Below, in pieces: positions 3,650-27,025 of a stretch of 32,042 nucleotides of DNA. A model generated the notes under the pieces. The model saw nothing but the letters and a program-made list of their open reading frames with translations. It searched no databases and was not told the DNA's origin. Location of the stretch: assembly GCA_903864935.1 (NCBI GenBank), contig CAIPHT010000007.1, forward strand, positions 80,293-112,334, read 5' to 3'. Position 1 is the first letter of the stretch; each line of letters begins with the position of its first letter. Position numbers and translations under genes: made by a program. The DNA comes from Candidatus Vogelbacteria bacterium. GTDB lineage: Bacteria; Patescibacteriota; Minisyncoccia; Phycocordibacterales; XYD1-FULL-46-19.

Positions 3650-6600
3650 ATGTCTGACGAAAAGCCAGAAGTCTTAAAATCTGATATTGCCAAGCGGGAG
3701 GAGGAGATCCTGAAGTTTTGGCAGGATAATAAAATTTTCGAGAAGACTTTTGAGAAGGAGTCACCTCAAGGTGAATTCGTCTTTTATGATGGGCCACCAT
3801 TTGCAACAGGCACCCCTCACTATGGTCACTTAATTGCTGGGACGATTAAGGACGTTATCCCTCGTTACAAGACGATGAAGGGTTATCACGTGCGTCGCCG
3901 TTGGGGTTGGGATTGTCATGGTCTACCAGTAGAGAACATTGTTGAGAAAGAATTGGATCTCAAGTCTAAGAAAGATATTCTTGATTATGGTATTGAGAAT
4001 TTTAATGATAAGGCGCGGGCTGTTGTCATGCGTTATGCCAATGAATGGAAGAAGGTGGTGCCACGTTTGGGTCGCTTCGTTGATATGGAGGATGATTATC
4101 GCACCATGGACGCCTCTTACTCCGAGACGACATGGTGGATCTTCAAACAACTTTTTGATAAAGGCTTAATCTATGAAGGTTATAAGTCAATGCATATTTG
4201 TCCTCGTTGTGAGACGACACTCTCGAACTTCGAGGTAACTCAAGGTTATAAAGATATTACGGACATCTCGGTCACGGTTAAATTTGAATTAGTAGGCGAG
4301 CCGGGGACTTTTGTGCTCGCCTGGACAACCACTCCTTGGACTCTGCCCGGCAACGTGGCTTTGGCTGTTAACTCGGAGATTGATTATGCTGAAGTCGAGA
4401 TTGAAGGAGACGACAATAAATATATTTTAGCTAAATCAAGAATCGAGGCAGCCTTAAAAAATAATTTTAAAATAATCAGAGAATTTAAGGGCGCCGATTT
4501 AATTGGCAAAAAGTACAAACCAGTTTTTGATTATTACGTTGACGATGCAAAATTAGAACACCGTGAGAATGGCTGGCAAATTTATGGCGCTGATTTTGTT
4601 ACAACCGAAGATGGTACCGGTGTGGTTCATATTGCGGCCTTTGGTGAGGATGACATGAATTTGATTCGCGAGAAGAATTTGCCTTTTATCCAGAATGTTG
4701 AGATGAACGGAGCTTTCAAACCGGAGGTTAAGGATTGGGCTGGTCTCAAAGTAAAACCAAAAGAGAATCCTCAATCAACAGACATTGAGGTTCTTAAGTC
4801 TCTAGCCGGGAAGGGAACACTTTTTGCCAAAGAGAAATTTACTCACTCCTATCCTCACTGTTGGCGTTGCGATACTCCACTTCTTAATTATGCCACCTCC
4901 TCTTGGTTTATTAAGGTGAGCTCTTTTCGAGATAAATTAGTTGAGGCAAATCAGAAGGTAAATTGGGTCCCGGATCATGTGCGTGATGGCCGTTTTGGCA
5001 AATGGCTCGAGGGGGCACGTGACTGGGCAATCTCGCGAACTCGTTTTTGGGGGGCGCCATTGCCCGTTTGGCGTTGTACCGACTGCGGGGCAATAAAAGT
5101 TTTTGGCTCTGTTGATGAGTTAGTTTCAGCCCTGCCTCAATCTAAAAATAAATATTGGGTAATGCGCCATGGTGAAGCCACATCTAACCTCCACGATTCT
5201 ATTAGTTCTAATCCAAGTGAAGAGAATCATTTGACCGAGAAGGGGAGAGAAGAGATTGTGGCGAGCGCTGAGAGCTTGAAGGAGAATAAAATTGATTTAA
5301 TTATTTCTTCGAATTTTATTCGAACAAGAGAGACGGCAGAGCTTGTGGCGAAGACCTTGGGACTTTTGCCAGAGCAAATTGTGATTGACGAGCGCTTGGG
5401 GGAAATTCAGCCAGGGGACTTCGCTGGGGGTTCTTGGCGTGAATATAACCTAGCCTTTGGCTCGCGCCTAAATCGACTCCATAATCATCTGCCAACCGGG
5501 GGTGAGAATTATAATGATGTTCGTCGTCGAATTATGTCGGCTATTTATGATATTAACGAGAAACACCAAGACAAGAATATCTTGGTTGTTAGTCATGGCC
5601 TGCCTTTATTTATGGCGCAAGCCAGCGTTTCTCGTTGGACGGATAAAGAGATTATTGATGCGCCTCATCGAGGCAAAGATTTTGCCAATGCCGAAGTTCG
5701 ACCTCTAAACTTTGTTCCGCTTCCTCACAACCGTAATTATGAATTAGATTTGCATCGCCCGTTTATTGATGAGGTTTCTTTCCCTTGTGCTTGTGGCCAG
5801 AGCTTCAAACGAGTGCCTGATGTCTTCGATTGTTGGTATGAGTCCGGCTCAATGCCTTATGCCGAAGATCATTATCCTTTTGGAGAAAATAGCCCGATTG
5901 ACCCAACGAAAGGGCTAGGCTTTCCAGCTGATTTTATCTCTGAAGGTCTTGATCAGACTCGTGGTTGGTTTTATAGCCTTATCGTTCTTGGGGTCGCCTT
6001 GTTTGATAAGAGCCCCTATCAGAATGTCGTGACCAATGGTCTGGTTTTGGCCGAAGATGGCCAGAAGATGTCCAAACATCTCAAGAATTATCCTGATCCA
6101 ATGGATGTTGCCAATCGCTTAGGAGCGGATGCTTTGCGCTTGTATCTAATGTCTAGCCCCGCTGTGCGTGGTGAGGACCTCCTCTTTTCTGAGAAAGGGG
6201 TGGTAGAGATTGGCCGACGCATAATCTCACGTCTACTTAACGTCTTATCTTTTTATCAGTTGTATACAGAAGAGGCGGTGGGCATCGAGGAGAGGCCTGC
6301 CCGTCCGGCAGGCGGGCCTCGGGCTCACTTGAGGACTCACCTCGGCATCAATCTTGATGAAGCTAAAAACGTTCTAGATCTTTGGATTCTCGCTCGTCTC
6401 GATGAGACAATTAAGCAAGTCACTAATTCTTTGGATCGTTATGAGATCGATCGTTCCATTCGCCCCATTGATGATTTTGTTGAAGACCTTTCTACTTGGT
6501 ATTTGCGTCGTTCACGAGATCGCTTTAAGGAAGATGGCCCCGACAAGGACATGGCCATTACGGTGACCAGTTTTGTGTTGCAAGAAATTGCTAAAGTCTT

Positions 6601-7222
6601 GGCCCCGCTCACCCCGTTTGTCTCAGAGATGATTTATCAAGAGCTTAAGACCGAACAGGACGAACTTTCTGTCCATCTTATCTCTTGGCCCAACTTCGAG
6701 CTTAAAGAAAAGGTTGCTGGTGAGAAAGAGCGCGCTATCTCTTTAATGGCTGAGACTCGACGTGTCGTATCCTTAGGGCTAGAATTTCGTCAGATACTCA
6801 AGGTTAAAGTGCGTCAGCCCTTGGCTGAGCTCAAGGTTAAGGCCGGAGTCTTGGCTGGACAGAATGATTATATTCAATTGATTGGTGATGAACTAAATGT
6901 TAAAGAAGTTACTTTTAACCAACCAATTGAAGATGAGGTTTGGCTTGATGGGGAAGTGGGGCCTGAGTTGATGGCTGAGGGCACGGTGCGTGAATTGGTG
7001 CGTCAGATTCAGGAGCGACGCAAGACTCTCGGTTTCAATCCGAACCAGAAAATCGAATTAATTATTGAAGCTGACAATTCGGGACGAGAAATTTTGCGCA
7101 AATATGAGAAGGAGTTAAAATCGGGGACAAATACCGAGAAACTCGATTATGCCATTGTCTCTGACGGGGAGGCCTTTGAGGCGAATGAAATACCTTTCAA
7201 AATAAAGATTATTAAACTTTAG
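3650..7222 (+). CDS. ileS: Isoleucyl-tRNA synthetase (eukaryote-like type) with internal histidine-phosphatase domain
   Basis: PPFATGTPHYGHLIAGT, WGWDCHGLPVE, GQKMSKHLKNYPDP, DVFDCWYESGSMPYAE. Internal WVMRHGEATSN...IRTRETAE...VVSHG. Confidence 0.96.
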   Translation: MSDEKPEVLKSDIAKREEEILKFWQDNKIFEKTFEKESPQGEFVFYDGPPFATGTPHYGHLIAGTIKDVIPRYKTMKGYHVRRRWGWDCHGLPVENIVEKELDLKSKKDILDYGIENFNDKARAVVMRYANEWKKVVPRLGRFVDMEDDYRTMDASYSETTWWIFKQLFDKGLIYEGYKSMHICPRCETTLSNFEVTQGYKDITDISVTVKFELVGEPGTFVLAWTTTPWTLPGNVALAVNSEIDYAEVEIEGDDNKYILAKSRIEAALKNNFKIIREFKGADLIGKKYKPVFDYYVDDAKLEHRENGWQIYGADFVTTEDGTGVVHIAAFGEDDMNLIREKNLPFIQNVEMNGAFKPEVKDWAGLKVKPKENPQSTDIEVLKSLAGKGTLFAKEKFTHSYPHCWRCDTPLLNYATSSWFIKVSSFRDKLVEANQKVNWVPDHVRDGRFGKWLEGARDWAISRTRFWGAPLPVWRCTDCGAIKVFGSVDELVSALPQSKNKYWVMRHGEATSNLHDSISSNPSEENHLTEKGREEIVASAESLKENKIDLIISSNFIRTRETAELVAKTLGLLPEQIVIDERLGEIQPGDFAGGSWREYNLAFGSRLNRLHNHLPTGGENYNDVRRRIMSAIYDINEKHQDKNILVVSHGLPLFMAQASVSRWTDKEIIDAPHRGKDFANAEVRPLNFVPLPHNRNYELDLHRPFIDEVSFPCACGQSFKRVPDVFDCWYESGSMPYAEDHYPFGENSPIDPTKGLGFPADFISEGLDQTRGWFYSLIVLGVALFDKSPYQNVVTNGLVLAEDGQKMSKHLKNYPDPMDVANRLGADALRLYLMSSPAVRGEDLLFSEKGVVEIGRRIISRLLNVLSFYQLYTEEAVGIEERPARPAGGPRAHLRTHLGINLDEAKNVLDLWILARLDETIKQVTNSLDRYEIDRSIRPIDDFVEDLSTWYLRRSRDRFKEDGPDKDMAITVTSFVLQEIAKVLAPLTPFVSEMIYQELKTEQDELSVHLISWPNFELKEKVAGEKERAISLMAETRRVVSLGLEFRQILKVKVRQPLAELKVKAGVLAGQNDYIQLIGDELNVKEVTFNQPIEDEVWLDGEVGPELMAEGTVRELVRQIQERRKTLGFNPNQKIELIIEADNSGREILRKYEKELKSGTNTEKLDYAIVSDGEAFEANEIPFKIKIIKL
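6296..6343 (+). repeat. Palindromic repeat element embedded in frame within ileS
   Basis: CCTGCC-CGTCC-GGCAGG followed by CCTCGGGCTCACTTGAGG, which is identical to the reverse complement of the core of the intergenic palindrome at 23835-23870. Encodes RPARPAGGPRAHLRTHL. Confidence 0.75.
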
Positions 7223-11932: not shown

Positions 11933-11974
11933 GGTATAGATGTGTTCTGGTGCGAGAGGGGGGTCTTTTTGAAC

Positions 11975-12004
11975 TTGACATCCTGTAGCACAAATTGCTA
12001 CAAT
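11975..12004 (+). promoter_or_regulatory. Toxin-antitoxin promoter with overlapping operator palindrome
   Basis: TTGACA (11975-11980), N18, TACAAT (11999-12004). Perfect palindrome TGTAGCA-N5-TGCTACA at 11984-12002. Confidence 0.75.
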
Positions 12005-12010
12005 AGGGGT

Positions 12011-12226
12011 ATGAGAACAACCTTAAACATTTCGATGCCGGTGGCGATGAAGAAGAACGTGGACCTAGCGGTTAAGGAGGGCAATTATGCTTCAGTTAGC
12101 GAGTTCCTTCGTGATGCTATCCGGGCGCTAGAAGAAAACAAATTATTTAAAGATATTATGGAGAGCGAGCGAGAATTTGCCGCTGGTAAGGGTAAGAAAC
12201 TCCGTTCTTTGAGAGACCTTATGTAA
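12011..12226 (+). CDS. Ribbon-helix-helix antitoxin (CopG/ParD-like)
   Basis: MRTTLNISMPVAMKKNVDLAVKEGNYASVSEFLRDAIRALEE; internal ATG of the listed ORF chosen from the promoter position. Confidence 0.85.
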   Translation: MRTTLNISMPVAMKKNVDLAVKEGNYASVSEFLRDAIRALEENKLFKDIMESEREFAAGKGKKLRSLRDLM

Positions 12227-12230
12227 ACCC

Positions 12231-12488
12231 ATGGAGATCGAATATTCTCCAAAATTTATGAGGCAATTCAAGAAATTGCCGAAGGAAGCAAAAGAGTCCG
12301 CCCTGAAGTGTGAGAAATTATTTAGAAAAGATCCTTTTGACCCCAAATTAAAAACACACAAATTGCACGGGGTACTGAGAGAATACTGGGCTTTTTCTAT
12401 TTTTTATGATTGCCGTATTTGCTTCGCGTTTATGGAGAGTAATTTTGTAAGATTTCATACTATTGGCAATCACGATATTTACAATTAA
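12231..12488 (+). CDS. RelE/ParE/YafQ-superfamily toxin
   Basis: MEIEYSPKFMRQFKKLPKEAKESALKCEKLFRKDPFDPKLKTHKLHGVLREYWAFSIFYDCRICFAF; coupled to the RHH antitoxin. Confidence 0.88.
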   Translation: MEIEYSPKFMRQFKKLPKEAKESALKCEKLFRKDPFDPKLKTHKLHGVLREYWAFSIFYDCRICFAFMESNFVRFHTIGNHDIYN

Positions 12489-16934: not shown

Positions 16935-17159
16935 ATGATGATAAAGAAACAAACAATCAGTCGCCAGTGCTCATTTTGCACTAATAATGTCAAAGATATC
17001 GATTATAAGGATATCGAGACCTTGAAGACCTGTGTCGACACCCACATGCGCATCAGCAAGCATCGCAAGACCGGTGTCTGTGCTAAGCACCAGAGAAGCC
17101 TTGCTTTGGCTATCAAGCGTGCCCGTTTTATGGCTCTTCTTCCTTATTTGGCTGGCTAG
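16935..17159 (+). CDS. rpsR: Ribosomal protein bS18
   Basis: DIDYKDIETLKTCVDTHMRISKHRKTGVCAKHQRSLALAIKRARFMALLPY; rpsF-ssb-rpsR order. Confidence 0.93.
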   Translation: MMIKKQTISRQCSFCTNNVKDIDYKDIETLKTCVDTHMRISKHRKTGVCAKHQRSLALAIKRARFMALLPYLAG

Positions 17160-17220
17160 AGGCGCTCGACTTAACTCACCAAAACAACACAGAAAACCCC
17201 TCCAGCGAGGGGTTTTCTTA
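17157..17220 (+). repeat. Left arm of ~64-bp inverted repeat, starting at the rpsR stop codon
   Basis: TAGAGGCGCTCGACTTAACTCACCAAAACAACACAGAAAACCCCTCCAGCGAGGGGTTTTCTTA; 4 mismatches and 1 indel versus the reverse complement of 18295-18357. Confidence 0.95.
17193..17220 (+). terminator. Intrinsic terminator of rpsR operon
   Basis: AAAACCCCTC-cagc-GAGGGGTTTT. Confidence 0.9.
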
Positions 17221-17381
17221 CGTTTCGTCATGGCCATTTTGCCATCGTTCTTCGCCTTGCTCAGAACATGAGTAATGGCAAAAACCGGCTGGCCGTGCTT
17301 TGCGACTGTGTCCGCCAAAACTTCAGTGTCGGCGGGGGTTGTTTTAGTGAATTAAGTCTCGCTTTGTTGTTGAAGTGTCTG

Positions 17382-17435
17382 TTATCCACAGGAACCCCTT
17401 GACCGGGGTTTTTGTTTTGGTAGAATGTAATCAGA
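17382..17435 (+). repeat. 54-bp promoter repeat, copy 1
   Basis: TTATCCACAGGAACCCCTTGACCGGGGTTTTTGTTTTGGTAGAATGTAATCAGA: TTATCCACA-N8-TTGACC-N16-TAGAAT. One mismatch to copy 2. Confidence 0.92.
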
Positions 17436-17690
17436 TTAGTTTGCGCCGTTGTGTTGACAAAGCCAGATGGTTCGCTACAGGACTCAGCCTGTGGCAAGAA
17501 AGTTTGCCCGTGCTATCCGACCGCTAAGCACGCACAGTTAACCCTTAAGCAAGGTTGCGCATCGCTCTTGGCAATAGAGCAAAACCATCACCTTCGTTGC
17601 CGCTCCCGAAGGGACCTGAGATACGCCGTGGCTTTTCGACACTTTTTGATGCCGCCCTTACACCTTCGTGTGCGGGGCGGCTCTTTCTTT
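17433..17690 (+). ncRNA. Candidate structured RNA unit 1
   Basis: Lies between promoter repeat copy 1 and terminator GCCGCCC...GGGCGGC (17651-17681) with CTCTTTCTTT. Internal stems ACAGG/CCTGT and GTGCT/AGCAC. No convincing CDS. Confidence 0.55.
17651..17690 (+). terminator. Intrinsic terminator of unit 1
   Basis: GCCGCCC-(inner ACAC/GTGT stem)-GGGCGGC followed by a T-rich tract. Confidence 0.75.
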
Positions 17691-17706
17691 GTATTAAAAA
17701 ACTTCC

Positions 17707-17736
17707 TTGTCATTGTTAGTAAGGGAATGCTATTAT
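17707..17736 (+). promoter_or_regulatory. Extra upstream promoter for unit 2, overlapping a DnaA-box 9-mer
   Basis: TTGTCA (17707-17712), N18 ending in extended -10 TGC, TATTAT (17731-17736). Confidence 0.55.
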
Positions 17737-17786
17737 CCACAGGAACCCCTTGACCGGGGTTTTTGTTTTGCTAGAATGTAATCAGA
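17733..17786 (+). repeat. 54-bp promoter repeat, copy 2
   Basis: TTATCCACAGGAACCCCTTGACCGGGGTTTTTGTTTTGCTAGAATGTAATCAGA; one substitution versus copy 1. Confidence 0.92.
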
Positions 17787-18065
17787 CCTGTTCACATTTG
17801 TTATTGGTAAGCTCGTTCCACCCCGGCGCGTGATTTGGTGGAAAAACTTCTCAATACTCATGTGATGGCCTCCGCATCTCGACGTTGTGTGGCCAAGCTC
17901 TTTTCTCAGACAAAGATCGTCTGACCATCCGCATGTTGCCTCCAAGTGCAACAAACGATCTGGACATTCATGCTCATGCTGTATGTCCGCTGCCTGACAT
18001 CGCCCAGAGCGTGTCACACCCAGACCGCCCAAAGCTTCGGCTAAGGGCGGTCTACTATTTTTATA
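17784..18065 (+). ncRNA. Candidate structured RNA unit 2
   Basis: Stems TTCCACC/GGTGGAA, TCAGAC/GTCTGA, GTTGC/GCAAC, GGACAT/ATGTCC, then terminator AGACCGCCC/GGGCGGTCT plus T-rich tail. Confidence 0.6.
18022..18065 (+). terminator. Intrinsic terminator of unit 2
   Basis: AGACCGCCC (18022-18030), GGGCGGTCT (18045-18053), then ACTATTTTTATA. Confidence 0.8.
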
Positions 18066-18091
18066 AAACTTTGCTATTCTTCTTTTCTTTC

Positions 18092-18136
18092 CCGCCAGAC
18101 CTTGAGAGGCCGCCCAAAGGTCTGGCGGTGTTTTTA
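18092..18136 (+). repeat. Dispersed CCGCCAGACC-type palindrome, terminator-like
   Basis: CCGCCAGACCTT (18092-18103) / AAGGTCTGGCGG (18117-18128) followed by TGTTTTTAT. Confidence 0.75.
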
Positions 18137-18141
18137 TATTC

Positions 18142-18171
18142 TTGCCCTTTGTAGTAGGGGAATGCTAAACT
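18142..18171 (+). promoter_or_regulatory. Promoter of unit 3
   Basis: TTGCCC, N18 ending in extended -10 TGC, TAAACT. Shares GGGAATGCTA with the 17707-17736 promoter. Confidence 0.5.
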
Positions 18172-18177
18172 GAAATG

Positions 18178-18291
18178 ACAGGAACTGATGACGTGGCAAA
18201 ATCGTCGTACGTTCCTGGGATATTGTTCTTTTTAGAATTGTCCTGCTCAAAAAATTACCACCCTCGGCCTCCGGCCTCGAGGGTGTTTTTC
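18178..18291 (+). ncRNA. Candidate short structured RNA unit 3
   Basis: Hairpin CAGGAAC (18179-18185)/GTTCCTG (18211-18217) with inner GACG/CGTC, then terminator ACCCTCG/CGAGGGT with GTTTTTC tail. A 15-codon ORF with AGGA before its ATG is also present. Confidence 0.55.
18260..18291 (+). terminator. Intrinsic terminator of unit 3
   Basis: ACCCTCG (18260-18266) ... CGAGGGT (18278-18284) GTTTTTC. Confidence 0.85.
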
Positions 18292-18294
18292 TTT

Positions 18295-18357
18295 TAAGAA
18301 AACCCCTCGCTGGAGGGGTTTTCTGTGTTGTTTGGTTGGTTAAGCCGAGTGCCTCTA
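18295..18357 (-). repeat. Right arm of inverted repeat, containing the efp terminator
   Basis: Reverse complement TAGAGGCACTCGGCTTAACCAACCAAACAACACAGAAAACCCCTCCAGCGAGGGGTTTTCTTA; starts at the efp TAG stop. Confidence 0.95.
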
Positions 18358-18918
18358 ATTGACGCGCTCTACGTACTCACCAGAGTCGGTATTGATACGA
18401 AGCACGTCGCCTTCATTGATGAACATTGGCACATTGACGGTGAAGCCAGTTTCGAGTTTGACCTGTTTGAGACCACCTTGCACAGTGTTACCTTTAACAG
18501 CAGGGGCGGCTTCGATGACCTTGAGTTCAACCTTAATCGGCACTTCAACTCCCAAGACCTTGTCATCGAAGGAGATAAGTTCTACTAGGGTATTTTGCTT
18601 CACAAAGTGGATTTGTTCGCCCACCTGATCAGCATCAAGCTCGAAGCGCTTGCTAGGGTCTTTCTCTTCGCAGAACCAATATTTACCCTTGGCCTCATAG
18701 AGATACTTAACCTTGCGACGATCTACCTCAGCTTCTTCAGCTTTCTCGCTCTGATGGAAGGAGACCTCCATCACCTTACCGGTGAGAAGATTCTTCATTT
18801 TAACAGCATTAACCGGCTTCCTCTGTTGTTTGCGGAAGACGTGGGAGGTGAGGATCTCAAAAGGGGCCCCTTCGTAGAGGATAACCTTGCGCTCTTTGAT
18901 TTCATTATATTCCAACAT
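18355..18918 (-). CDS. efp: Translation elongation factor P with non-canonical tip loop
   Basis: MLEYNEIKERKVILYEGAPFEILTSHVFRKQQRKPVNAVKMKNLLTGKVMEVSFHQSEKAEEAEVDRRKVKYLYEAKG; three-domain EF-P. Confidence 0.93.
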   Translation of the reverse strand: MLEYNEIKERKVILYEGAPFEILTSHVFRKQQRKPVNAVKMKNLLTGKVMEVSFHQSEKAEEAEVDRRKVKYLYEAKGKYWFCEEKDPSKRFELDADQVGEQIHFVKQNTLVELISFDDKVLGVEVPIKVELKVIEAAPAVKGNTVQGGLKQVKLETGFTVNVPMFINEGDVLRINTDSGEYVERVN

Positions 18919-18979
18919 AGTAATAGGATATTAACTGAAAAATACTTAATTTTCAAGGGCTTCACCCCGCCAGACCAAT

Positions 18980-19017
18980 CTTCTAAAAAGTCCTCGGATC
19001 TCCTCAATCTACGATTT
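18980..19017 (+). repeat. 38-bp exact direct repeat, copy 1
   Basis: CTTCTAAAAAGTCCTCGGATCTCCTCAATCTACGATTT; identical at 23785-23822. Lies between CCCCGCCAGAC (18965-18975) and GTCTGGCGGGG (19041-19051). Confidence 0.95.
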
Positions 19018-19076
19018 CGGCCAGACATTTTTATCAGATTGTCTGGCGGGGAGAGCCTGTTCTGGTTGGCTGGTTT

Positions 19077-23762: not shown

Positions 23763-23784
23763 AAAATCCCGCCATCAGAACATG

Positions 23785-23822
23785 CTTCTAAAAAGTCCTC
23801 GGATCTCCTCAATCTACGATTT
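23785..23822 (+). repeat. 38-bp exact direct repeat, copy 2
   Basis: Identical to 18980-19017; flanked by CCCGCC on the left and the palindrome at 23835. Confidence 0.95.
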
Positions 23823-23834
23823 CCTTTTCCCTTC

Positions 23835-26296: not shown

Positions 26297-27025
26297 GGGG
26301 TCAGTCACCATTTTCTTATTCTTCTTTTCTTTATATAATATATCTAATGCCTAGATTAGAAAGAATTGATGTTGGTAATAATGTCTATCACATTCTCAAT
26401 CGAGCCAATGCCCGAGCCCAAATTTTCTATAATGATAATGACTACAAACTTTTTGAAAGTATTTTAGAAGAAGCGGTTGAGAAGTTTAAGATGCGTTTGT
26501 TGGCATATTGCCTAATGCCCAATCATTGGCACCTCGTTCTCTATCCAAGGAATGATGGTGACCTAGCTCTTTTTATAAGTTGGTTGACCAACACTCACAC
26601 CCGACGCTGGCACACCGAGAAGGGAACGGTGGGTGAGGGGCATCTCTATCAAGGACGATATAAGTCTTTTCTTTGTCAGGATGATGGCCATTTCTTAACC
26701 CTTGTTCGTTATGTGGAGAGAAACGCTAAGAAAGCTAAACTAGTTTTGAAGTCCGTGGATTGGCCGTGGTCTAGCGTCTGGCGTCGAGAAAAAGGGACAG
26801 ATAAACAGAAGAAAATTTTGGCCCCTTGGCCAGTGCCTCGACCAGAAAATTATCTTCTTTGGTTAGATCAATCACAGTCTGAGGAAGAAGAGGGGACGAT
26901 AGAAATGTCTGTACTTAAGAGTAGCCCTTTTGGTTCCCTGGATTGGATGGAGGATGCTGTGAAAAAATTTAACTTAGAACAAACCCTGCGAAGAGTGGGG
27001 AGACCAAGAAAAGGGGGCTGACCCC
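26297..27025 (+). mobile_element. RAYT-type unit: Y1 transposase bounded by GGGGTCAG/CTGACCCC
   Basis: GGGGTCAG at 26297-26304 and CTGACCCC at 27018-27025; the latter overlaps the ORF stop codon. Confidence 0.65.
26347..27021 (+). CDS. IS200-like Y1/REP-associated tyrosine transposase (RAYT)
   Basis: VYHILNRANARAQIFYNDNDYKLF, LLAYCLMPNHWHLVLYP (HUH-type), GHLYQGRYKSFLCQDDGHFLTLVRYVERNAKKAKLV, WPWSSVWRR. Confidence 0.92.
   Translation: MPRLERIDVGNNVYHILNRANARAQIFYNDNDYKLFESILEEAVEKFKMRLLAYCLMPNHWHLVLYPRNDGDLALFISWLTNTHTRRWHTEKGTVGEGHLYQGRYKSFLCQDDGHFLTLVRYVERNAKKAKLVLKSVDWPWSSVWRREKGTDKQKKILAPWPVPRPENYLLWLDQSQSEEEEGTIEMSVLKSSPFGSLDWMEDAVKKFNLEQTLRRVGRPRKGG

Follow-up and report, generated by a model that had tools for sequence, protein, structure and literature searches.

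Stable structured RNAs such as tmRNA, RNase P RNA, SRP RNA, and 6S RNA are expected in every or most bacteria. Other systems close to the locus described here are bacterial trans-acting small RNAs (sRNAs) from intergenic regions, such as the many lineage-specific sRNA families in Rfam, and REP sequences, which REP-associated tyrosine transposases mobilize. For Patescibacteria, a limited search of the open-access literature returned no study of small RNAs. We analyzed a stretch of 32,042 nucleotides, hereafter the window, which corresponds to positions 80293–112334 of contig C7 in a Candidatus Vogelbacteria genome (825 kb in 20 contigs); unless a contig is named, coordinates refer to the window. 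The gap between the rpsR and efp genes of this window contains a segment, termed unit 3, that resembles trans-acting intergenic sRNAs in being a short free-standing unit with a predicted sigma-70-type promoter, a conserved single-stranded loop, hairpins, and an intrinsic terminator. Unlike the lineage-specific sRNA families, unit 3 has no Rfam family match, and it is found in two species. The surroundings of unit 3 recall REP systems in combining dispersed intergenic palindromes (18091–18128 and 17161–17365) with a Y1 transposase related to NF047646. Unlike in REP systems, the window transposase falls below the family cut-off, and its relation to the palindromes is known here as co-occurrence. 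This transposase (26347–27021) carries PF01797 and matched NF047646 with an E value of 2e-17, and the genome is rich in dispersed palindromes.

The gap begins after rpsR (S18; 16935–17159, plus strand) and ends at efp (EF-P; 18355–18918, minus strand), which is followed by recA. It spans approximately 1.1 kb in the window genome, compared with approximately 160 bp for the whole rpsR–efp gap in Ca. Vogelbacteria bin-1675 (CAIKBK010000045.1; hereafter the sister species), the only congeneric genome compared. The initial annotation had described positions 17221–18294 as lacking a convincing CDS and as resembling an array of three sRNA genes built by promoter duplication. The absence of coding potential was borne out: none of the open reading frames (ORFs) in the gap matched Pfam, even at E ≤ 10, and their codon-usage scores fell among those of out-of-frame control ORFs, the true genes of the window scoring 0.07 to 0.47. 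No Rfam family matched the gap at the gathering score, and at E ≤ 10 the matches were weak and mostly terminator look-alikes; tmRNA, RNase P RNA, SRP RNA, and 6S RNA gave no match there even at this threshold. Two of these RNAs were located elsewhere in the genome (tmRNA at C8:2074 and an RNase P RNA match at C1:4626), so that the initial annotation had been right not to recognize them here, and we rejected either identity for the units of the gap. The gap is thus real and non-coding, but its parts form a mosaic, as opposed to an array of three equivalent RNA genes. In the interpretation that we prefer, with a probability of roughly 0.72, unit 3 is the selected sRNA gene of this mosaic, and the remainder is derived within the lineage, units 1 and 2 showing no evidence of selection.

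Unit 3 is a candidate small RNA gene at approximately 18178–18294 (plus strand), supported by conservation, folding, and compensatory changes. Its predicted promoter, TTGCCC-18-TAAACT with an extended -10 TG, lies at 18142–18171 on the plus strand. The sister species has TTGCCT-18-TAAAAT, again with the extended -10 TG, and the sequence match gives a layout common to both species, TTGCCY-18-TAAAnT; unit 3 is accordingly predicted to have a promoter of its own. Downstream, on the same strand, are hairpin P1 (18180–18216), hairpin P2 with a two-U bulge (18218–18243), and an intrinsic terminator predicted in both species, with a strong GC stem and a T-tract (18259–18294). The loop of P1, TGGCAAAAT, occupies 18194–18202 within an invariant block at 18190–18209; in the RNA, these correspond to a 9-nt loop UGGCAAAAU and a 20-nt block GACGUGGCAAAAUCGUCGUA. 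With the terminator stem excluded, the body of unit 3 folded far better than its shuffles, with a z score of -4.52, below every one of 34 control windows (mean z -0.45, sd 1.37, minimum -3.88).

We then compared unit 3 with its counterpart in the sister species, which was recovered in a DNA search of the family with an E value of 1.6e-10 and 73% identity over approximately 117 nt, including a 20-nt identical block. The counterpart is syntenic, lying directly after rpsR and before efp. Four-fold degenerate sites of rpsR, efp, recA, and ftsK were merely 43–55% identical between the two genomes, and because non-coding conservation in unit 3 is high while the four-fold sites of neighboring genes are far diverged, these findings point to selection on unit 3. 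Both sequences adopt one common predicted fold of two hairpins and a terminator (z -5.2 and -5.3). Among the pairs that changed, 10 of 11 were standard in the sister species, compared with 4.4 expected under random substitutions (P = 0.0008), for a pair list aligned by hand from two sequences, so that the covariation amounts to one comparison. Four pairs had changed on both sides, two of them in P2 and two in the terminator stem. Two changed pairs in the lower stem of P1 were absent from the window's own sequence, which indicates that P1 is not constant throughout. The reading frame through the conserved block is interrupted by stops in the sister species, and since the codon signal is absent as well, unit 3 is not a peptide gene. 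Sister-species conservation, compensatory changes, and the conserved promoter together make an RNA gene at unit 3 well supported at the sequence level.

The distribution of unit 3 was narrow. A covariance model of P1 matched solely the window's own genome and the sister species in the family search. Across 299 genomes of the order, it recovered the own genome and one weak match (E = 0.0018, in genome G060) that we judged on inspection to be an unrelated palindrome, and no genome of this set from outside the genus yielded unit 3. It was likewise absent from the stretch following rpsR in the other family genomes where this stretch was read. Among genome contigs, the exact 20-mer of unit 3 occurred in the sister species and in Deefgea; the latter was judged to be a chance match because its flanks do not extend the similarity. 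Two matches to a 17-mer of unit 3 in viral contigs were dismissed, their flanks again not extending. Unit 3 is therefore best described as one new sRNA candidate, apparently confined to the genus.

The rest of the gap, which we regard as genome-specific debris, has a different composition. Positions 17161–17365 (plus strand), directly after the rpsR stop, are one copy of a palindromic repeat element that is dispersed in the genome, and this copy includes the terminator hairpin of rpsR. The same genome has at least five more copies, at 74–89% identity, and six further family genomes contain partial matches. This element, which had been missed, accounts for the first ~145 bp of the interval delimited by the initial annotation (17221 to ~17365). 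A second dispersed palindrome, CCGCCAGACCTT...AAGGTCTGGCGG, lies at 18091–18128; we found several copies of it in the own genome and a single one in the sister species. Dispersed repeats are also seen beyond the gap: a 57-bp dispersed repeat (88% identity) occurs at 18962–19018 and 23767–23823, has the core CTTCTAAAAAGTCCTCGGATCTCCTCAATCTACGATTTC, and adjoins CCGCCAGACC palindromes. In addition, the RNase P RNA match is preceded at a distance of approximately 80 bp by a fragment of the dispersed element (C1:4499–4547).

Between the dispersed element and unit 3, we examined the promoters proposed for units 1 and 2. The near-identical repeats noted before these units form a 57-bp direct repeat, 96% identical, at 17379–17435 and 17730–17786 (plus strand). 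Each copy is a cassette in which a short terminator hairpin (ACCCC-TTGACC-GGGG followed by a T-tract; fold computed on copy 2) is fused to a predicted promoter, TTGACC-16-TAGAAT with an extended -10 TG, located at 17399–17426 in copy 1 and 17750–17777 in copy 2. The 9-nt word TTATCCACA is found near the start of each (17382–17390 and 17733–17741). A second predicted promoter upstream of unit 2, TTGTCA-18-TATTAT with an extended -10 (17707–17736, plus strand), and the promoter of unit 3 are diverged copies: positions 17706–17732 and 18141–18167 agree at 22 of 27 sites, compared with a maximum of 21 in 200 Markov shuffles, and ACAGGAAC follows both, which bears out the earlier remark on promoter sequence common to unit 3 and the region of unit 2. 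Under strict settings, five promoters, two of them from the duplicated cassette, were counted in comparison with 1.9 ± 1.4 in shuffles, only a mild excess over chance. Judging from these alignments, promoter duplication took place. The mosaic would then have grown between rpsR and efp in the lineage of the window genome, with the dispersed palindromic element landing after rpsR and promoter duplication giving rise to units 1 and 2.

The transcripts delimited by these promoters are putative. Unit 1 (17434–17690, plus strand) ends in a GC-rich terminator at 17651–17681, and unit 2 (17785–18060, plus strand) in a GC-rich stem at 18022–18053; as the initial annotation had it, a GC stem and a T-rich tail close each of the three units at the places given. 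Its description of hairpin-rich bodies holds clearly for unit 3 only. With the terminator stem removed, the body of unit 1 folded no better than chance (z -0.46), and that of unit 2 folded modestly (z -2.04), its reverse strand doing better (z -3.61). Both units are orphans: no relatives of their bodies were found in the sister species, in 16 family genomes, in 299 order genomes, or among phages and plasmids. Short DNA matches in order genomes turned out on inspection to reflect chance words or the generic resemblance of terminators and T-tracts, and a phage or plasmid origin was rejected, neither source giving a match.

These results bear on the possibility that all three units are functional sRNA genes, forming a lineage-specific array that expanded by promoter duplication and whose bodies evolve too fast, or are too young, to have recognizable relatives. 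Such an array would be in keeping with the duplicated promoter cassettes, the terminator at the end of each unit, the missing coding signal, the excess length of the gap over that of the congener, and the folding of unit 2, which was somewhat above chance (z -2.0 to -3.8). Against it stand the body of unit 1, which folds like its shuffles, the reverse strand of unit 2, which outperforms the sense strand, and the absence of relatives of either unit from the 299 order genomes and the congener. We consider this array a possible but rather unlikely account. What survives of the array originally proposed is the duplication and unit 3, whereas units 1 and 2 have neither relatives nor, beyond their terminators, convincing structure and the interval is partly dispersed repeat. 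Units 1 and 2 could be RNA genes of recent origin, or they could have arisen without selection as by-products when terminator–promoter cassettes were duplicated; the data, with one congener available for comparison, favor by-products. They may be transcribed, and selection on their products is unsupported.

Another explanation concerns unit 3 itself, which could belong to the rpsR operon as its structured 3′ UTR and terminator, with inserted repeats having moved it away from rpsR in the window genome. The arrangement in the sister species fits this proposal, since unit 3 there starts no more than 30 nt after the rpsR stop and its promoter overlaps the end of rpsR. However, the promoter layout is retained even though the surrounding sequence differs, lying within the end of rpsR in the sister species and free-standing in the window, and in the window, rpsR ends in a terminator of its own 1 kb before unit 3, yet unit 3 has been kept. 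A 3′ UTR origin of this kind therefore appears unlikely, and a free-standing gene remains our preferred interpretation of unit 3.

The word TTATCCACA in the cassettes, the consensus DnaA box, occurs exactly five times in the window compared with 0.2 expected, and 31 times in the genome compared with 10 for the reversed word, an approximately threefold excess. The five window sites (17382, 17733, 23979, 27095, and 28114) are spread over 11 kb and all lie outside called genes. At 17382, 17733, and 23979, the word precedes a -10-like hexamer by approximately 30 bp. The cassette promoters may be under the control of DnaA. A lineage-specific array in which three trans-acting RNA genes of this ultra-small bacterium multiplied through the copying of promoter cassettes with DnaA boxes would imply that expression of the RNAs follows the replication cycle; we regard it as very unlikely. 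Still more improbable is that the gap serves as a DnaA-binding region or replication origin. The perfect boxes in the 57-bp repeats and the excess of TTATCCACA in window and genome would suit such a role, but the gap holds only two boxes, both within the duplicated cassette, and the other window sites are single. Moreover, the cumulative GC-skew minimum of contig C7 coincides with dnaA (C7:35476), approximately 62 kb from the gap; because the two coincide, the likely origin is near 35 kb of C7, and we rejected the gap as the origin on this ground.

Finally, the gap is bracketed by 44-nt inverted arms that are 95% complementary. The left arm (17177–17220, plus strand) is the rpsR terminator hairpin with its flanks, and the right arm (18295–18338, minus strand) is the efp terminator hairpin, an inverted copy of the left. 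That these arms on either side are the ends of a 1.1-kb invertible or mobile cassette is extremely improbable, since identical 37–39 nt copies of the hairpin occur singly at several unrelated loci in the own genome, which marks both arms as members of a dispersed terminator family, a similar terminator follows rpsR in G003, and the search for another copy of the cassette gave none. In G003, which belongs to another genus, the nearly identical terminator hairpin CACAGAAAACCCCTCCAGCGAGGGGTTTTC stands right after rpsR (locus L040).

In the mosaic interpretation, unit 3 would be a free-standing small RNA gene of approximately 115 nt and the one demonstrably selected component of the gap. Transcription would start near 18178 from the extended -10 promoter and end at the intrinsic terminator near 18290, giving an RNA that runs from P1 through P2, with its two-U bulge, to the terminator. 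A leader or riboswitch role is unlikely because the next gene, efp, converges on unit 3. The RNA would most likely act in trans and make contact through the invariant loop of P1, and we infer that base-pairing with an mRNA is a more likely mode of contact than protein binding. A duplex scan of the start regions on contig C7 yielded no clear target; a high-ranking match in the window, at 16974, was an ORF antisense to rpsR. G003, a relative without unit 3, contains the loop complement ATTTTGCCA at a similar frequency, and we therefore rejected targeting of this word in the dispersed element. Unit 3 is a compact, testable candidate that would open a first way into RNA-based regulation in Vogelbacteria. 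The gap as a whole also serves as a warning that, where gaps of such genomes are rich in repeats, promoter- and terminator-like units are not necessarily RNA genes.

Two further features were observed elsewhere in the window. An ORF for an isoleucyl-type tRNA synthetase (3650–7222) carries a histidine phosphatase domain (PF00300; residues 503–664, E = 2e-31) inserted between synthetase segments. At 11942–12488, weak family matches suggest a probable pair of a ParD-like antitoxin and a YafQ/RelE-like toxin.
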